A stretch of DNA of 64,000 nt from Saprospiraceae bacterium (GTDB lineage Bacteria > Bacteroidota > Bacteroidia > Chitinophagales > Saprospiraceae). The notes beneath the pieces were generated by a model. It ran no database searches. It was not told where the DNA came from and saw only the letters and a program-made list of their open reading frames with translations. This document shows positions 4,294 to 60,694 of this stretch, in pieces (positions within the stretch are counted from its first letter, which is position 1; the number at the start of each line of letters is the position of its first letter). A program made the translations under genes and the position numbers. The stretch is from positions 1 through 64,000 of the forward strand of contig JABDMH010000106.1 of assembly GCA_013001595.1 (NCBI GenBank), given 5' to 3'.

Positions 4294-5943
<1,650 letters not shown>

Positions 5944-6032: not shown

Positions 6033-6305
6033 CTATTTATCTAGGATAACAAGAATGTCATCTTCTCGCATGATGAGAAAGTCTTCACCATCGTAAGACA
6101 GCTCCTGGCCTGCATATTTGCCGTAGAGTACTATGTCTCCTTCGGCTACAGTCATCAGATTGCCATCTTTACCGGGTCCTACGGCAACGATTTCTCCTCT
6201 TTGAGGCTTCTCCTTGGCCGTATCGGGAATGATGATCCCTCCTACCGTCTTCTCGTCAGCCGGAGCAGGTTTTACAACTACTCGATCATTGATTGGCTTC
6301 ATCAT
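6033..6305 (-). CDS. groES: 10-kDa co-chaperonin GroES
   Basis: 90 residues. Caps the GroEL ring and closes the folding chamber. The sequence has the full GroES pattern: [21 protein letters not shown] with the mobile loop, [10 protein letters not shown], and the ending [11 protein letters not shown]. The start MMKP offers two ATGs; either is possible. No CIRCE operator (TTAGCACTC-N9-GAGTGCTAA) is seen upstream, so HrcA control is not indicated; instead a -24/-12 promoter lies about 56 bases upstream of the ATG. Confidence 0.98.
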
Positions 6306-6360
6306 ATTGTCTAAATTATTTTAATGTTAGGAAAATTGGTTCAATTTCAATCTTGGTTAC

Positions 6361-6376
6361 AGCACTTCTTATGCCA
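6361..6376 (-). promoter_or_regulatory. Candidate sigma54 (-24/-12) promoter of groES-groEL
   Basis: The minus strand reads TGGCATAAGAAGTGCT. Compared with TGGCAC-N5-TTGC(A/T), only two positions differ and the GG and GC pairs are exactly 10 bases apart, as RpoN requires. Predicted transcription start is near 6350, giving a 45-base leader to groES. No TAnnTTTG element is seen in this interval. Confidence 0.6.
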
Positions 6377-6440
6377 GTCGCATTTTTCTGTCATTATTGC
6401 AGTATATCCTCTGAGATCCCAACAGAACCTGCTCATTCAT

Positions 6441-6475
6441 TGTCATTTCCTGTCAGTTTTCTTGCCATTTTGACA
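6441..6475. promoter_or_regulatory. Repeated TGTCA/TGCCA/TGACA boxes upstream of the groES promoter
   Basis: On the plus strand TGTCA occurs at 6441 and 6451, TGCCA at 6463 and TGACA at 6471, spaced 8-12 bases (about one helical turn). They lie roughly 90-125 bases upstream of the predicted groES start, the usual place for activator sites of sigma54 promoters. Further single copies occur at 6372 and 6389. Binding protein unknown. Confidence 0.45.
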
Positions 6476-6488
6476 CAAACAGACAGAT

Positions 6489-6525
6489 GAAAAAAACCTG
6501 ATGAATCATTATCATCAGGTTTTTC
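6489..6525 (-). terminator. Terminator of the miaB-secG operon
   Basis: A perfect 10-bp stem AACCTGATGA/TCATCAGGTT (6495-6521) with a 7-base loop. T runs flank both sides, so it could work in both directions. It lies 25 bases after the secG stop and separates secG from the groES promoter. Confidence 0.85.
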
Positions 6526-6545
6526 TTTACCCTATTTATCTGGGA

Positions 6546-6806
6546 TTATTCTGAAATTAGACTTTCCGCGCCACCCGATGTTCCAACCATCAGGGTAGTA
6601 ATGATACAAAGCGTGAAGAGCGCGATGGCCAAGCCCCAGGTGATCTTTTCAATGAAGTCAGTGGATTTAGCAGCGCCAAACATTTGATTGGCACTTTGTC
6701 CTCCAAAAGTAGAATCAACTCCACCTCCTTTTGGGTTTTGGATAAGGACCACCGCCATCAGCAATAAACTGACTATGGCGATCAAAAAGGTCATAAAAGT
6801 TACCAT
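6546..6806 (-). CDS. secG: Preprotein translocase subunit SecG
   Basis: 86 residues with two membrane segments (about 4-22 and 54-74) joined by the conserved cytoplasmic loop VLIQNPKGGGVDSTFGG. It is the small accessory subunit of the SecYEG channel. An in-frame ATG four codons later (MTFLIAI) is an equally plausible start. The gene directly abuts the upstream coding sequence, so translation is probably coupled. It is the last gene before the operon terminator. Confidence 0.95.
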   Translation of the reverse strand: MVTFMTFLIAIVSLLLMAVVLIQNPKGGGVDSTFGGQSANQMFGAAKSTDFIEKITWGLAIALFTLCIITTLMVGTSGGAESLISE

Positions 6807-8708
6807 CTATCTCTTGTTTTTTTGCAACTCTGCAATTTTCTGCGCAAAGAAAACACTTTTTTCGGGAATTATCAAGCGCAGTTTCTCATACATCTGGATG
6901 GCTCGTTTCTTATGCCCCTGCTTGGCCAATAACTCGGCCAGGGCTTCCGATACCAATGCTTCATCAGGTAACAAACTATCCTTTTTCCAAGATTTCTTTT
7001 TCTTCTTCTTGCGTTTTTTCTTCTTTTTCTCTCTTTTCTTCTTGGCTTTTTTAGCATCTTCTTCCATGAAGAACAACGCTGATTTTCCCTTCTTCTTTTT
7101 CTTCTTCTTGCGTTTTTTCTTTTTCTTTTTCTTTTTCTTGGTCTCCTGCTCGAGGTCATGATATCCCTCTGAAGGAGCATTGCCCAAACTCTGTAACCAA
7201 GCTATAAATGGGCTATCGATGTCCTCATCGCCAATTGGCTTGAGGCTTTCTTCATCTAAAATGAGTTGACCTTGTTCATCTTCATCTGGTTCTGCTAGCC
7301 CATCTCCGCCTTTAGTGGTAGCTTCTTCAAGTGGTACTTCGACGTCCAGAGATTCAGAAATGAGACTTGGCCGGTCTGTGAAAGTGGTGAGGTCTCCAGG
7401 ATCCCAAAACATGGCATCAATTTCAGCAAAATCTAGGCTTGATGTATTGAAGTCATGGGGTTCGCTATCTGCTGAGTCAGACATCGAGACTGCTTCTAAT
7501 GGCACATCAGGAGAAGCTTCTACTTTATCAAGTGGAACTTCAAAAATGGACAATTCAACCGGATTCCACAAGTAAGCTGGTTGCTCATCTTCGATGGAGC
7601 TGGTCACTTCATCTGCCTCCACGACATGGGTTGCAATCCAATTGGTGATGAAGAGTGTTGAGTTCCAAAAAATGGCATCAGGAATCTCCAGCTCAAAGGT
7701 CGCTCGTGCGCCTGAAGTGGAAGCAACTTCTGGATGCCGCTGGTGGAAATCTGATAGGAAAGCATCGGGATTCCAATGGAGCGCATCGGGAATATCCAGT
7801 AGTTTTTCTACCGTTACGGGCTCTGGAGTTGAAATGAATCTTTCTTGGTTGAGAACAGTTAAAAAGGGATCAGCATTCCAAAGGATCGCATCGGGAATGT
7901 CAATTAATTCAACTGCTGGAGTCTCACGCTGCTCATCGATATGGTCAAAATAGGCATTGGAAAAGCTAAAGGCATCCCATAAGTATGCTGCATTATCGTC
8001 ATCAAGTAAATCACCGACTCTAAAATCCACTGTAGCTACCTGATCAGCTGGTTGCCATGAGCGATCTTCCGCACCAATGGCTGGAAGGTCAAAGTGAGAT
8101 GTAGGTTCCTCTTTTTCCTCCTCGGTCCCCAATGCACCAGATTTATCTTCATCATCCAAATGGATGGAGTCTTCGATAGCTGCCTCCTTGACATCGTCAA
8201 CCAAAGTGGTTTCCTCTTGATCTTTTTCAATTAGGTCCGCAAGTTCCTCATCGGAAATCTGCTCTTCCACATCCTCTTGAGCAAAATAGGATACTTGCTC
8301 TTCCGTAGTTTCTTCATGGACAATTGTGGTGTCTTCAGCATCGGAGAAGTCTTCCTGCTGACCTGTAGCTTTTGGCTCTTCAGCATATGCAGGTACATGA
8401 TCTATTTCTTCTTTTTCTACGGGCAGCGGATCATCTTTACGCAGACTTTGTAGTTTGTTCATCCATTCCCCCAGTCGCCGCCGATCAGCGATATAGAGTG
8501 CTGCTTTTTCTAAGAGTTCTTGGTTGACCATCCCTTGGTCCAGGTGGTCTTTTATGGCTATCAATAAATGAAGGTGGGTATTATAGGGGAAGCGATTGCT
8601 TATGTCCTTGAGCTCATTTTTGTCTACTCTCTTTAAGGCATTGGGCTGCCTCAGATAGAATGAGAGTGGTTTACCATGAATGAGCGTTTGCTCCATATTG
8701 CCTTTCAA
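6807..8708 (-). CDS. Acidic repeat protein with poly-lysine tracts and C-terminal TPR-like segment
   Basis: 633 residues (or 629 from the second Met, MEQTLIHGKP). It has no signal peptide. The N-terminal 60 residues look helical; residues about 90-250 are very acidic. The middle carries six degenerate copies of a motif like IPDAxxWNPxxF. Two long lysine/arginine tracts follow, separated by KSALFFMEEDAKKAKK. The last 50 residues (LVSEALAELLAKQGHKKRAIQMYEKL) resemble one TPR unit. The place between secG and lptE is held by poorly conserved proteins in many Bacteroidota. Function unknown. The A-rich lysine codons are a possible site of length variation. Confidence 0.8.
   Translation of the reverse strand: MKGNMEQTLIHGKPLSFYLRQPNALKRVDKNELKDISNRFPYNTHLHLLIAIKDHLDQGMVNQELLEKAALYIADRRRLGEWMNKLQSLRKDDPLPVEKEEIDHVPAYAEEPKATGQQEDFSDAEDTTIVHEETTEEQVSYFAQEDVEEQISDEELADLIEKDQEETTLVDDVKEAAIEDSIHLDDEDKSGALGTEEEKEEPTSHFDLPAIGAEDRSWQPADQVATVDFRVGDLLDDDNAAYLWDAFSFSNAYFDHIDEQRETPAVELIDIPDAILWNADPFLTVLNQERFISTPEPVTVEKLLDIPDALHWNPDAFLSDFHQRHPEVASTSGARATFELEIPDAIFWNSTLFITNWIATHVVEADEVTSSIEDEQPAYLWNPVELSIFEVPLDKVEASPDVPLEAVSMSDSADSEPHDFNTSSLDFAEIDAMFWDPGDLTTFTDRPSLISESLDVEVPLEEATTKGGDGLAEPDEDEQGQLILDEESLKPIGDEDIDSPFIAWLQSLGNAPSEGYHDLEQETKKKKKKKKKRKKKKKKKGKSALFFMEEDAKKAKKKREKKKKKRKKKKKKSWKKDSLLPDEALVSEALAELLAKQGHKKRAIQMYEKLRLIIPEKSVFFAQKIAELQKNKR
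7000..7140 (-). repeat. Direct repeat encoding two lysine-rich tracts
   Basis: A stretch of more than 25 bases built of TTCTTTTTC/TTCTTG/CGTTTTTTC units (plus strand) occurs near 7000 and again near 7095. It encodes two near-identical Lys blocks in the 6807-8708 protein. Low-complexity sequence of this kind is prone to slippage. Confidence 0.8.
7400..8000 (-). repeat. Degenerate protein repeat IPDAxxWNPxxF, six copies
   Basis: Within the 6807-8708 gene, motif copies read AAYLWDAFSF, IPDAILWNADPF, IPDALHWNPDAF, IPDAIFWNSTLF, PAYLWNPVEL and IDAMFWDPGDL. Spacing is roughly 35 residues between the best three. The Trp and following Asn/Asp are invariant. Confidence 0.75.
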
Positions 8709-8712
8709 TTTA

Positions 8713-9225
8713 TTACCAATTTGTAAAAGCTTTATTGAAGATATCCTCAGTTAGCTGAGTAAAGATGACTGTAATGAGACCATCTTGTATATCCAATAAG
8801 TTTTGCTCCCTACTATAATCTTGGAAAAAGGTGAATGTGTTTTCCCAGTTGTTTTCTTCATCTAAGGCATAATCATATTTCATACGAACTGAAATTTCCA
8901 GCCGATTGAACGCAATGGATTCTCCCGGTTGTGGAGCCACCGACGTTACGGAAAATCTCGAAATCTCACCACTAAACTCGATGTCTGGATTAAGGTCACT
9001 GAAATTAAGCCTGGATTCATTAATAAATTTCTGTTTGAGTGCTTCACTGAATTGCTGCCCCAAGTCTGACGGAGCGGTCGGAATCCTGTTTTCCAAGTCG
9101 GTTACATAAAAAGTCTGAGCATCTGCGGGTATAGAAATTCCTTTAAAGGAATAACAGCCGGAGCTGAAAAGCATTCCACTCAACAGTAACCCAAGAAGTG
9201 TGCCTATATGTATCCGTCCTAGCAT
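8713..9225 (-). CDS. lptE: LPS-assembly lipoprotein LptE-like
   Basis: 170 residues with a lipoprotein signal (lipobox FSSGC, Cys24) followed by YSFKG, the typical start of LptE in this phylum. LptE plugs the LptD barrel and helps place lipopolysaccharide in the outer leaflet. The body is weakly conserved, ending ADIF-like helix LTEDIFNKAFTNW. The place between the sigma54 activator and secG is the standard one for LptE in Bacteroidota. It follows the activator by 9 bases, so it is in the same operon. Confidence 0.85.
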   Translation of the reverse strand: MLGRIHIGTLLGLLLSGMLFSSGCYSFKGISIPADAQTFYVTDLENRIPTAPSDLGQQFSEALKQKFINESRLNFSDLNPDIEFSGEISRFSVTSVAPQPGESIAFNRLEISVRMKYDYALDEENNWENTFTFFQDYSREQNLLDIQDGLITVIFTQLTEDIFNKAFTNW

Positions 9226-9234
9226 GGGTAAGGA

Positions 9235-10527
9235 TTACTGTAGTTCATACTGCTTGATTTTTCGATATAGAGTACGCTCCGAAATGCCCAGATCCTGTGC
9301 AGCATCCTTACGTCTCCCTTTATGTTTATTGAGTGCTTTGCCAATTAGCTCTTTTTCCATTTCCTCAATAGATAAGTTCTCATCAACTTCTTCCGTTTCT
9401 GAAAACCGAGTGGACTGTGTGTTGGGTAAGATGATTGGTTTACTAAGATCAGGCGGTGCCTGTCGCTCTGGTATTGGGTATGTCTCTTCAGGTTTTGTAG
9501 CATCTGCCAGATGATCCTTTAGTTCCTGACGAATCTCGCGAATCGGTCCACTATCTCCCCTGGCAAGTTGCTTCAATTGCCGATCTGGCATTTGCAGGTC
9601 ATTGTTTTGCACGAGTTCGAAAATGAGGCTTTTAAGATCATTCAGATCAGATTTCATGTCAAAAAGAAGCTTATACAAGATCTCCCTTTCTTGAAGCCCA
9701 TCACCATTTCCCTGTGTCCGATGCAAAGCTGGCAATCTGCTGGTATGAACGCTCGGAATAAAGGTCTCAAGAACAGCAGCGTCGATAGACCTTTCTTCTG
9801 ATAGCACAGACATCTGTTCAGCAACATTTTTGAGCTCTCTGATGTTTCCGGGCCAATTATGGCGCTCCAATAGTGACTTTGCGTCGGGGGTGAGTTCGAT
9901 AGGATCTGTTCGATATTTTTCGGCAAAATCCAAAGTGAATTTTCGGAAGAGCATATAAATGTCTTCTCGCCGATGGCGTAATGCGGGTACATGAATGGGA
10001 ACGGTACTCAGCCGATAATATAAGTCCTCCCGAAATTTGCCAGCCCTTACCCGATCCATCAGATCGATGTTTGTCGCTGCAATCACCCTCACATCTGTTT
10101 TAAGTACCTTGCTGGAGCCCACCCTCAAAAATTCGCCACTTTCCAATACGCGTAATAGGAAGGCCTGAGTGTCTAGAGGCATCTCACTAATCTCATCTAA
10201 AAAGATGGTGCCTGAATTTACAGTTTCGAAATAGCCTTTGCGTTCACTTGTTGCCCCAGTAAAAGCGCCTCTTTCATGTCCAAATAATTCCGAGTTGATG
10301 GTCCCCTCCGGTATTGCACCACAATTGATGGCGATGGAAGTGTTGTGCTTACGTGGACTAAGGGCATGAATAATTTTGGAAAATGCCTCTTTCCCAACCC
10401 CACTTTCTCCACTTACCAGTACAGTCAGTTCAGTAGGGGCTACCCTCACTGCCGTGCTGAGGGAGTTGTCAAGAGAAGTTGACCTCCCAATAATACCAAA
10501 ACGCTGTTTTATTGCTTGGATATTCAT
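9235..10527 (-). CDS. Sigma54-dependent activator without sensor domain, Fis-type DNA binding
   Basis: 430 residues. The AAA+ domain begins at the N-terminus, with no receiver, GAF or PAS domain before it. Walker A is GESGVGKE (40-47), the sigma54-contacting loop GAFTGA is intact (87-92), Walker B is GTIFLDE (106-112). A linker of about 130 residues with a predicted coiled segment leads to a Fis-type helix-turn-helix (RKDAAQDLGISERTLYRKI). It therefore should open RpoN promoters, with control by its amount or by a partner protein. Its ATG overlaps the miaB stop (ATGA), so it is translated with miaB. Candidate targets are the two -24/-12 promoters in this window. Confidence 0.93.
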   Translation of the reverse strand: MNIQAIKQRFGIIGRSTSLDNSLSTAVRVAPTELTVLVSGESGVGKEAFSKIIHALSPRKHNTSIAINCGAIPEGTINSELFGHERGAFTGATSERKGYFETVNSGTIFLDEISEMPLDTQAFLLRVLESGEFLRVGSSKVLKTDVRVIAATNIDLMDRVRAGKFREDLYYRLSTVPIHVPALRHRREDIYMLFRKFTLDFAEKYRTDPIELTPDAKSLLERHNWPGNIRELKNVAEQMSVLSEERSIDAAVLETFIPSVHTSRLPALHRTQGNGDGLQEREILYKLLFDMKSDLNDLKSLIFELVQNNDLQMPDRQLKQLARGDSGPIREIRQELKDHLADATKPEETYPIPERQAPPDLSKPIILPNTQSTRFSETEEVDENLSIEEMEKELIGKALNKHKGRRKDAAQDLGISERTLYRKIKQYELQ

Positions 10528-11948
10528 TGAGGCATTGCTACTTCGACGGTTTTATCTGCAACAACACCAATCAATGTCGCACTAGTGGCGTCTTTGATGG
10601 TCACTTTGGTGTAGTCTCCTGGTTTAAAGCCTGGTATTTTACGGAAGACAACCATCTTATTCTGAGAATTTCTCCCTTTGAAATATTCCTTAGACCGTTT
10701 CGAATCGCCTTCAATTAAGATTTCGAAAGACTGCCCTACGTCCTTACGGTTGTGTTGTCTGGAGAGTTCGTTTTGCAATGCAATAACTCCCTGCAGCCGC
10801 CTTTTCTTCTCCTCCAGAGGAACATCATCGGCATATTTCTTTGCTGCAGGGGTCCCTGGCCGTTCTGAGTACATGAACATGTAAGACATGCTATATCTAG
10901 CATACCGCATGATGTTCAGCGTTTCCTCATGATCCGCTTCTGTTTCACTGCAAAAACCAGCAATGATATCTGAGGAGATGGCACAGTCAGGAACTAGTTC
11001 GTAAATCCGATCTATTTTGTTTTTATACCAAGCTTGATCATAGGTTCGGTTCATCAGTTTCAATACCCTACTACTGCCGGACTGGACAGGTAGGTGTATG
11101 TATTTGCAAATGTTTGGATATCGAGCTATGGTATGAAGTACTTGGTCGGTTATGTCTTTGGGATGTGAGGTTGAAAACCTGATGCGTAAAAGAGGATGAA
11201 TATCTGCAACCATGGCAAGCAGATTGGCGAAGGATACTTGAGGTATTCCTTCTCTTGTCCATGAGTATGAATCCACATTTTGTCCAAGCAGGGTCACCTC
11301 ACGATAACCACGCTCAAATAGATCGCTTGCTTCGGCAACAATGCTAAATGGATCTCGGCTTCGCTCCCTTCCTCGAGTGTAGGGTACTACGCAGAATGAA
11401 CACATGTTGTCACAGCCACGCATAATCGAGATGAATGCCGTGACACCACTACTATTCAATCTGACGGGGCTTATGTCAGCATATGTTTCTTCCCGGGACA
11501 GAAAAACGTTGACGCCTCGATTCCCTTCGTCGGCATCCGCGAGCAGAGTGGGCAGATCACGATAAGCATCAGGTCCTACTACCAGATCTACTAGTTTCTC
11601 TTCTTCCAGCAGTTTATTTTTTAAGCGCTCTGCCATACAACCCAAAACACCTACTAGTGAACCGGGCTTATCGGCCAAACTCTTTTCAAAAACACGCAGT
11701 CTCTTACGTACGGTTTCTTCAGCTTTTTCCCGAATGGAGCAGGTATTGATGAGTACAAGATCTGCATCATCGAGGTTGGGTGTGGGATGATAGTTGGCCT
11801 CTCCTAGAATCGATGCTACGATTTCGCTGTCGCTAAAATTCATTTGACATCCGTAGCTCTCGATATAAAACAGCTTACCTGAAGACGTTTTCTTATCGCC
11901 CGTGAAGACTTCTCCTTGTCTTTCCTCAACTATTGCTTTGTCAGTCAT
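10524..11948 (-). CDS. miaB: tRNA-2-methylthio-N6-isopentenyladenosine37 methylthiotransferase MiaB
   Basis: 474 residues. Radical-SAM enzyme that adds a methylthio group to i6A37 of tRNAs. Three cysteines of the N-terminal UPF0004 domain are visible (ESYGCQMN, NTCSIREKAEE, LGCMAERL), then the radical-SAM cluster RGCDNMCSFCVVPYTRGRE, and a C-terminal TRAM domain. A 25-residue N-terminal extension precedes the conserved start. It is the first gene of the minus-strand operon that runs to secG. Upstream, TACCTTTA at about 12003-12010 (minus strand) is close to a -7 element. Confidence 0.97.
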   Translation of the reverse strand: MTDKAIVEERQGEVFTGDKKTSSGKLFYIESYGCQMNFSDSEIVASILGEANYHPTPNLDDADLVLINTCSIREKAEETVRKRLRVFEKSLADKPGSLVGVLGCMAERLKNKLLEEEKLVDLVVGPDAYRDLPTLLADADEGNRGVNVFLSREETYADISPVRLNSSGVTAFISIMRGCDNMCSFCVVPYTRGRERSRDPFSIVAEASDLFERGYREVTLLGQNVDSYSWTREGIPQVSFANLLAMVADIHPLLRIRFSTSHPKDITDQVLHTIARYPNICKYIHLPVQSGSSRVLKLMNRTYDQAWYKNKIDRIYELVPDCAISSDIIAGFCSETEADHEETLNIMRYARYSMSYMFMYSERPGTPAAKKYADDVPLEEKKRRLQGVIALQNELSRQHNRKDVGQSFEILIEGDSKRSKEYFKGRNSQNKMVVFRKIPGFKPGDYTKVTIKDATSATLIGVVADKTVEVAMPQ

Positions 11949-12099
11949 GATCCTTGGATGCTAGAGTTTTAGTATCACTAGCCCTTTATAGATAGGGCGC
12001 CTAAAGGTACAGATTAATTGACTATCTATGCCATTTTGGCAGCGATATGAGCACATGATAATTTCATATTTTGACGATTGTTAATTTTTAAAGTACGCT

Positions 12100-58837: not shown

Positions 58838-59041
58838 TTAGTTTTGAGCTTCAATCTGGTGGTCAATAGGCAGGTCATTGTCGGCCAGGTAGCACTTTCG
58901 TGCCATCATGACAGTCAACATGAACACAATTAAACCAAGGCTCAGATAGGAGATTTTCCAACCCCAGATATTGCCGAGATAGCCATCAGTTTCATCTGTG
59001 TCGTTTTGATCTTTCAAGGGCCCAATCTTGCTCTGCGTAAT
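58838..59041 (-). CDS. Small membrane ORF abutting dapF, non-ATG start
   Basis: Up to 67 residues, from the stop codon next to dapF (TAA then ATG) back to an in-frame TAG at 59053. It has a polar start (GPLKDQNDTDETDGY), a membrane helix (ISYLSLGLIVFMLTVMMA) and a polar end (CYLADNDLPIDHQ). No ATG precedes the helix: possible starts are ATT at 59041, giving MTQSKIGPLK..., or TTG at 59020. A frameshift near 59020 is an alternative, because neighbouring frames continue upstream. Direct contact with dapF suggests coupled translation. Confidence 0.5.
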   Translation of the reverse strand: MTQSKIGPLKDQNDTDETDGYLGNIWGWKISYLSLGLIVFMLTVMMARKCYLADNDLPIDHQIEAQN

Positions 59042-59272: not shown

Positions 59273-60694
59273 ATGAAGAATATTGGATTGATGGTAATCG
59301 TGGCACTTTTGAGTTCTATCATCACGGTAGGGCTTTTTAAGTCTTTCGATGCACGTGAGAAGATTATCATTAGAGAAGCCATGCCTTCGCAGCGAGCAGC
59401 CCTAGCAGAGCGGCCTGTAAATCTCGCTCCTCGGCGTTCGGTCATCGTCAATACACCTACCGATTTTGTTACGGCTTCCACTTTGGCCACACCTTCTGTC
59501 GTGTTTATCAAAACCTTACATGCCAATAAGCGCAGCTACTGGAATTATAAGTATACCGCATCTTCTGGGAGTGGTGTAATCGTATCTCCAGATGGATATA
59601 TCGTGACCAATCACCATGTGGTCAGTGAGGGTTCTGAGATAAATCTGACCTTAAATGACAAACGGAAATATTCTGCTGAATTGGTGGGAAGTGATCCAAC
59701 GACAGACATAGCCTTACTCAAGATTGATGCTAAGAACTTGCCTTACGTTTCATTTGGAAATTCTGATTCTCTACAAATTGGAGAATGGGTGATGGCCATT
59801 GGCAATCCATTCCGGCTAGAGTCAACTGTCACCGCTGGTATTGTGAGTGCCAAAGCCAGGAATATCAGTATTTTGGACAATGAGGCTAGCGTGGAATCAT
59901 TCATTCAAACTGATGCCGTGGTCAATCAGGGCAATAGTGGCGGAGCCTTGGTCAATACTAATGGAGAATTGGTGGGCATCAACGCTGCTATCATCACCCA
60001 ATCAGGAAAGTATGAGGGATATTCGTTTGCGATACCTAGCAATTTGGCTAAGAAGGTCATTGCTGATCTACGGGAATTTGGTGAGGTACGTCGAGGAATA
60101 TTGGGTGTAAGTATTAAGAACATCAATGACGAGTTGGCAAAGAAAATCGGGCTAAAGGAAGTGAAAGGGGTCTATCTCGATTATGTGAATCCCAATAGTG
60201 CTGCCAAGAAGGGTGGTCTGCAGAGTGGTGATGTCATTACAGGAATTGATGGTACGTTGACCAACACATTTCCACAATTGCAGGAAATTATTGCCCGTAA
60301 ACGGCCAGGAGATCTATTGCAGGTGTCATACTTTAGGGACGGTGAATCTGCAAATGCAGAAGTGCGGCTAGAGCAAAAGATTGTCCGTGAACTAGATCCG
60401 ATGATGGTAGAAATCGGATTTGAGCTGAAAGATCTTTCAGATTCTGAGACCCGAAAATTTGGCAAATCTGGTGCAAAAGTAAACAGCATCTATCGCGATA
60501 GTAAGATTATGGCTACCAACATGGATCTGGATTTCATCATCACCTCTGTCAATGGTGATCCAGTCGCTAATGTAGTTGAAACCCTCGAAGCCATTAGGAA
60601 TGTGAAGGCCGGAATCGTAGAACTCGGTGGCTTCTATCCCCAATTTGAAGGTGAATTCTTCTACGCATTTCGCGTAGAGGATGAAAATAACTGA
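59273..60694 (+). CDS. HtrA/Deg-type serine protease
   Basis: 473 residues. N-terminal membrane anchor or signal (6-22), trypsin-like domain with His115 (TNHHVV), Asp145 (TTDIALLK) and Ser222 (QGNSGGA), then a PDZ domain (GVYLDYVNPNSAAKKGGLQSGD) and a second, weaker PDZ. Degrades misfolded periplasmic proteins. Strong GGAG three bases before the ATG. The C-terminal segment is longer than DegS, matching DegP/DegQ. Confidence 0.95.
   Translation: MKNIGLMVIVALLSSIITVGLFKSFDAREKIIIREAMPSQRAALAERPVNLAPRRSVIVNTPTDFVTASTLATPSVVFIKTLHANKRSYWNYKYTASSGSGVIVSPDGYIVTNHHVVSEGSEINLTLNDKRKYSAELVGSDPTTDIALLKIDAKNLPYVSFGNSDSLQIGEWVMAIGNPFRLESTVTAGIVSAKARNISILDNEASVESFIQTDAVVNQGNSGGALVNTNGELVGINAAIITQSGKYEGYSFAIPSNLAKKVIADLREFGEVRRGILGVSIKNINDELAKKIGLKEVKGVYLDYVNPNSAAKKGGLQSGDVITGIDGTLTNTFPQLQEIIARKRPGDLLQVSYFRDGESANAEVRLEQKIVRELDPMMVEIGFELKDLSDSETRKFGKSGAKVNSIYRDSKIMATNMDLDFIITSVNGDPVANVVETLEAIRNVKAGIVELGGFYPQFEGEFFYAFRVEDENN

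Follow-up and report, generated by a model that had tools for sequence, protein, structure and literature searches.

A predicted sigma-54 promoter and conserved TGNCA boxes before groES-groEL in Saprospiraceae suggest a chaperone regulon with an AAA+ activator

INTRODUCTION

HrcA/CIRCE or sigma-32 commonly controls groESL in many other bacteria, and control of the chaperonin by RpoN (sigma-54) is unusual in bacteria at large. The initial annotation of the DNA studied here, which took chaperonins to be usually under a heat-shock sigma factor, HrcA/CIRCE or the primary sigma factor, is right in this for bacteria at large. One described exception is groESL3 of Bradyrhizobium, which is controlled by NifA and tied to nitrogen fixation. 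The accessible part of PMC4842269 lists groESL3 among the RpoN-dependent genes, and as a groESL operon with a sigma-54 promoter it resembles the locus described below. However, groESL3 is one of several copies, whereas the present genome yielded one groES copy together with a heat-shock gene set.

Within the phylum Bacteroidota the above expectation does not hold, as RpoN control of chaperone genes has been published for the fish bacterium Flavobacterium psychrophilum (PMC9723704), so that the promoter type of groESL is already known. The accessible part of that paper reports that the mapped starts of groES-groEL, dnaK, grpE-dnaJ, htpG, clpB and lon have a sigma-54 motif, and describes three proteins with a sigma-54 interaction domain whose roles are left open by the authors; the locus tags suggest the gene order EBP (0733), lptE (0732) ... 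groES (0729), groEL (0728) (PMC9723704). Furthermore, a 2025 survey (PMC12316311) describes, in its accessible part, an enrichment of chaperone genes among the sigma-54 targets of Bacteroidota, and names GroES of Bacteroides thetaiotaomicron as dependent on sigma-54. The reference given there for the latter statement is a Blattabacterium nitrogen recycling paper and looks misnumbered.

In the literature searched we found no paper naming the activator or the boxes of Bacteroidota chaperone genes, and no explanation of how HrcA-less Bacteroidota induce their chaperones. Here we describe the groES-groEL locus of a Saprospiraceae bacterium (assembly GCA_013001595.1) within a stretch of 64,000 nucleotides (contig JABDMH010000106.1, positions 1 to 64,000, hereafter the window). 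The candidate activator and the boxes of the chaperone genes are new here. The starts were mapped in F. psychrophilum, whereas the boxes and the candidate activator at this locus are known from sequence alone.

RESULTS

The groES-groEL locus and its promoter

On the minus strand of the window the order is miaB, an AAA+ sigma-54 activator (EBP), lptE, a lysine-rich protein, secG, a hairpin, groES and groEL. The elements are:

4294..5937, minus strand: groEL (Cpn60; PF00118)
6033..6305, minus strand: groES (Cpn10; PF00166)
6361..6376, minus strand: predicted sigma-54 -24/-12 promoter of groES-groEL, TGGCATAAGAAGTGCT, conserved in the family and the order
6490..6526, minus strand: terminator-like hairpin and U tract between secG and groES (-18.6 kcal/mol, z -5.5)
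6546..6806, minus strand: secG (PF03840)
6807..8708, minus strand: open reading frame of the lysine-rich protein, without a Pfam match at E 0.001
8713..9225, minus strand: lptE (PF04390)
9235..10527, minus strand: EBP, AAA+ sigma-54 activator with GAFTGA loop and Fis-type HTH_8, candidate activator of groESL
10524..11948, minus strand: miaB, first gene of the presumed EBP-encoding operon (TIGR01574 over cut-off)

A motif scan upstream of groES located TGG at -24 and TGC at -12 in TGGCATAAGAAGTGCT (6376-6361), and the exact spacing of 10 bases between GG and GC that the initial annotation had described was recovered. The predicted start lies near 6350, about 45 nt 5′ of the ATG. The terminator-like hairpin (6526-6490), which was not among the matches of a simple terminator scan, parts secG from groES, so that groES probably needs a promoter of its own. 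The product of 6807-8708, which adjoins secG, is large and carries long lysine-arginine tracts.

We compared this site with groES upstream regions of relatives. The groES search was positive in 115 of 119 genomes, this genome included, and after exclusion of eight weak groES rows (E values of 3e-6 and above, 46 residues or fewer) gave 122 upstream regions, of which 75 belong to the same family and 47 to other families of the order. A strict GG-N10-GC scan overlooked many sites because GA or GT is frequent at -12; instead we scored matches of at least 10 of 11 positions to TGGCAYRNNNNNTGCW within 250 bases, with dinucleotide shuffles and the reverse strand as controls. Such a site precedes groES in 54 of 75 family loci, where shuffles gave 1.2 and the reverse strand 1, and in 28 of 47 loci from other families (0.7 in shuffles, 0 on the reverse strand). 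By its pattern and its conservation above chance TGGCATAAGAAGTGCT is a predicted sigma-54 promoter.

The GG-N10-GC motif holds in this genome but not as a strict rule: among the promoters that could be anchored (60 of the 75 family and 34 of the 47 other-family regions) the -12 element reads TGAT in 34 of the 60 family members. The -12 elements of the sigma-54 sites of groES, dnaK, clpB and grpE in relatives are mostly TGA or TGT and not TGC. RpoN of this group may read GA, or the heat-shock promoters may be deliberately weak. Two groES copies occur in seven family genomes, and in four of these (L057, L063, L066, L071) one copy is without a credible sigma-54 site, as if only one copy belonged to the regulon; L057 retains a 13-mer of the kind described in the following section.

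TGNCA boxes upstream of groES

The following boxes lie upstream of the promoter:

6463..6475, minus strand: distal 13-mer TGTCA-AAA-TGGCA (boxes one and two), presumed enhancer, 86 bases before TGG
6441..6455, minus strand: two further boxes from the motif scan, TGACA (6455-6451) and TGACA (6445-6441)
6389..6401, minus strand: proximal box TGCAATAATGACA, ending 12 bases before TGG

The initial annotation had named four TGTCA/TGCCA/TGACA boxes about one helical turn apart and about 90–125 bases upstream. This is borne out: TGTCA (6475-6471), TGGCA (6467-6463, TGCCA on the opposite strand) and the two TGACA boxes have starts 8, 12 and 10 bases apart and lie between about -125 and -91 relative to the predicted start. 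One more box, a fifth, TGACA (6393-6389), was absent from that description and forms the end of the proximal element. Among the anchored promoters, a TGNCA starts at -19 to -10 from TGG in 49 of the 60 from the family (1.8 expected) and in 10 of the 34 from outside it (0.7 expected). The distal 13-mer, TGNCA-N3-TGNCA at 50–150 bases upstream, is present in 31 of the 60 anchored groES promoters of the family with about 0.2 (0.21) expected and lacking in the other 29; in the 34 anchored groES promoters from other families of the order it was found in none, and single TGNCA boxes persist there. The comparison of groES upstream regions proposed with the initial annotation hence finds both the sigma-54 site and the boxes conserved, and we regard the conserved TGNCA boxes as presumed enhancer sites.

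A candidate activator upstream of groES

The genome has one rpoN, RpoN was found in 115 of 119 genomes, and an AAA+ EBP with a GAFTGA loop is encoded in the window at 9235-10527. An orthologue of this EBP (E 1.9e-116 or better) was found in 116 of 119 genomes; its nearest named relatives include sequences from a Bacteroidia MAG (81%), a Bacteroidetes MAG (63%) and a Saprospiraceae MAG (61%). Among 120 groES loci (G058 and G059 are left out of this count) the EBP is codirectional with and at most 10 kb upstream of groES in 29, of which 19 are from the family and 10 from other families; the two genes are on different contigs in 79 and apart on one contig in 10. The same order, EBP-lptE-...-groES-groEL, is suggested for F. 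psychrophilum by the locus tags in the accessible part of the paper.

PspF is a described EBP that autoregulates through its own enhancer sites. The window EBP resembles it in layout, with an AAA+ domain and a C-terminal HTH; a receiver domain was not found in 9235-10527. It is not PspF, as it scores 271.4 bits with TIGR02974 against a cut-off of 443.55 bits, and its presumed targets are cytosolic chaperones, unlike the phage-shock operon. With this PspF-like layout and no receiver domain, control of the EBP would probably depend on a partner protein or on the titration of chaperones.

The 13-mer on the miaB-EBP operon

A further 13-mer of this kind lies in front of the presumed operon that encodes the EBP:

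12029..12041, minus strand: 13-mer TGCCAAAATGGCA upstream of the miaB-EBP operon, a presumed operator for autoregulation, conserved in family loci
12002..12009, minus strand: TACCTTTA, which nearly matches the sigma-A -7 box of Bacteroidota and lies 19 bases downstream of the 13-mer

For comparison, 40 miaB-EBP loci were chosen among those with enough contig. In the family, where 22 miaB loci were counted (20 relatives, this genome and L179), all 22 carry a 13-mer at most 350 bases before miaB with 0.16 expected, and in 15 of the 22 it lies 19–20 bases before a TAnnTTTG-like box. The miaB coding sequences of the 20 relatives, 28.6 kb in total, contain none. Two loci of named relatives outside the 22, L180 and L182, have 13-mers 116 and 62 bases before miaB; the distant L181 has none at the EBP operon. 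In other families the 13-mer was found in 13 of the 15 loci in which miaB was recognised (0.11 expected) and, as three of the remaining five loci have one at a similar distance, in 16 of 20 overall; four of these 20 have no 13-mer in front of the EBP operon, and in these families the TAnnTTT box stands at varying distances from the 13-mer.

When a box recurs on the operon that encodes the regulator itself, this usually indicates autoregulation, which we infer for the EBP. Since the box adjoins the sigma-A-type promoter of the operon, its position suggests that the EBP regulates its own operon negatively. The F. psychrophilum data differ at this point: the EBP-lptE promoter is listed there as motif SM5 in the accessible part of PMC9723704, in contrast to the TGNCA 13-mer and the TAnnTTTG-like box before miaB here.

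Chaperone genes sharing the boxes

This genome contains 38 occurrences of the pattern TGYCANNNTGRCA, compared to 7 of the backward control pattern. All 38 were checked, and eight lie outside open reading frames of at least 180 aa; five of these eight precede groES, clpB, two hsp20 genes and the miaB-EBP-lptE-secG operon. The remaining three (L333, L338 and window positions 58901-58913) have no sigma-54 site nearby and were left out of the regulon. The 13-mer at 58901-58913 is situated between dapF and a gene for a trypsin/PDZ (HtrA-like) protease (59273-60694).

From the end of the 13-mer to a TGG-N10-GA site the distance is 44 bases in the clpB promoter and 43 and 44 bases in those of the two hsp20 genes, and the groES elements end 86 and 12 bases before TGG. 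For grpE, a near-copy of the 13-mer ends 12 bases before TGGCAAGTAAATTGAT, the same spacing as that of the proximal groES box. The dnaK upstream region has a sigma-54-like site and two TGNCA boxes, with no 13-mer. Hence groES, clpB, two hsp20 genes, grpE and dnaK all carry sigma-54-like sites in this genome, and the similar boxes and sites before clpB, hsp20, grpE and dnaK look like those of a heat-shock or protein-quality regulon. The SM4 regulon of F. psychrophilum is alike, with groES-groEL, dnaK, grpE-dnaJ and clpB behind sigma-54 promoters in the accessible part of PMC9723704.

With a relaxed pattern, sigma-54-like sites were found in relatives before dnaK in 23 of 26 loci (0.7 in shuffles, 0 on the reverse strand), before grpE in 16 of the best 30 loci (1.3 in shuffles, 0 on the reverse strand) and before clpB in 13 of the best 30 loci (1.0 in shuffles, 0 on the reverse strand). 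The grpE sites, which read TGGCAA, were detected by a wider pattern selected after viewing the grpE sequence of this genome; a first scan with a strict sixth base had given two doubtful sites in 30 relatives and none here. The 13-mer was not seen in most dnaK, grpE and clpB loci of relatives.

GC-type sigma-54 sites occur 43 times genome-wide compared to 7 for the backward pattern; 31 of the 43 are inside open reading frames of at least 80 aa, and among the 43 the groES site is the only one with a 13-mer within 160 bases upstream. At L164, L172 and L139 sigma-54 sites such as TGGCATGATTTATGCA and TGGCATGGTTTATGCA precede envelope-type genes (lytic transglycosylase-like by eye). These sites, which are without a 13-mer, may be targets of another activator.

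Which protein binds the boxes?

Three lines point to the EBP at 9235-10527 as the activator: its position near groES, the elimination of other EBPs by their lack of an HTH, and the 13-mer on its own operon. We found three clear EBPs among nine PF00158 matches in this genome (EBP counts per genome rest on at most 27 scored candidates each), which agrees with the three proteins with a sigma-54 interaction domain in the accessible part of the F. psychrophilum paper. The presence of two further EBPs leaves room for a different reading, in which the sigma-54 promoter is real and the TGNCA boxes are bound by a different EBP or by a separate regulator of heat shock (activator or repressor) with the miaB-EBP operon among its targets. 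A general regulator of this kind would fit boxes on both sigma-54 and sigma-A-type promoters as well as the EBP does. In addition, two draft genomes with groES boxes, G041 and G044, yielded no orthologue of the window EBP, and the sole EBP found in G041 is without an HTH.

However, among the three EBPs here the one at 9235-10527 alone has a Pfam HTH over threshold. The C-terminal end of the third looks helix-turn-helix-like and gave only a sub-threshold HTH_17 match. The second has no Pfam HTH here or in the nine family genomes scanned (eight of the 20 family genomes with two EBPs were scanned, and in each the other EBP is without one); as it carries HTH_8 in 11 of 11 genomes scanned from other families, the elimination argument is valid only within the family. 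The recurrence of the motif at the operon of a single regulator across the order also points to this regulator, and binding of the boxes by another protein appears rather unlikely to us. The second EBP is of the receiver type (here L177:1858-3138; L259-L278 in relatives), and GAFTSA or GSFTSA replaces GAFTGA in its loop in 19 of 20 genomes read and in this genome.

Other promoter classes

Alternatively, a housekeeping sigma-A promoter could be the main source of groESL transcripts, with the sigma-54 site as a minor or conditional start: the chaperonin is essential and needs a basal supply, and a sigma-70-type scan gave four weak 9-of-12 matches on the groES strand (6422-6285). We set these matches aside as they are weak and the consensus, that of E. 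coli, is wrong for the phylum; over the whole 1.4 kb the scan gave 9 matches with 2.9 (sd 1.7) expected. Because of them the sigma-54 site, which the initial annotation had called the only promoter-like sequence before groES, stands as a site, with 'only' being slightly too strong. The sigma-A -7 box of Bacteroidota, TAnnTTTG, is absent from the 240 bases 5′ of groES in this genome, and in relatives it is barely above shuffles (11 of 75 family regions compared to 8.4; 8 of 47 others compared to 6.2). The full Bacteroidota sigma-A pattern was found in one of 122 groES upstream regions, and the terminator-like hairpin after secG also speaks against this reading. We regard a main sigma-A source as very improbable.

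Control of groESL by HrcA/CIRCE or sigma-32, the usual arrangement elsewhere, has a negligible probability and is for HrcA close to refuted: in contrast to HrcA/CIRCE systems, the repressor was found in 0 of 119 genomes by a search that rings in 7 of 14 named genomes as a positive control, halves of the CIRCE inverted repeat (GAGTGCTAA) in 0 of 122 groES upstream regions, and a sigma-32-like pattern in 0 of 75 family and 1 of 47 other-family regions.

None of the sigma-A, sigma-32, sigma-70 and CIRCE patterns is clearly enriched across the 122 groES upstream regions, with the sigma-32-like and sigma-70 patterns near the chance level. Together with the conserved site and boxes, RpoN in 115 of 119 genomes and HrcA in none, this supports the sigma-54 control of groES-groEL that the initial annotation had put forward.

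DISCUSSION

We propose that RNA polymerase with sigma-54 (RpoN) would wait at 6376-6361 and transcribe groES-groEL once an AAA+ EBP, sitting on the TGNCA boxes (the 13-mer near -125 and the proximal copy near -45), opens the closed complex by ATP hydrolysis. The activator is most likely the EBP at 9235-10527, encoded in the operon just upstream of groES. A signal would reach it through a partner protein or through free chaperone (titration), and it would probably also act on the sigma-A-type promoter of its own operon. The promoter, the boxes, their conservation, the boxes common to chaperone genes and the 13-mer on the EBP operon are read directly from the DNA, and from these we infer binding, activation and autoregulation by the EBP and its inducing signal. 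Taken as a whole, this explanation, with groESL on a sigma-54 site, the EBP activating through the TGNCA boxes, a chaperone regulon and control of its own operon, appears quite probable to us.

Extended to the order, it would mean that heat shock runs without HrcA and on RpoN, with a receiver-less EBP as the master activator of groESL, dnaK, grpE, clpB and hsp20 through TGNCA boxes and as a regulator of its own operon; we consider this wider picture moderately likely. The conserved box and the single candidate activator make the question open to a gene-removal and binding experiment. A chaperone regulon under an ATP-driven activator would differ from the logic of a sigma factor or a repressor, in that without active ATP hydrolysis there would be no transcription.
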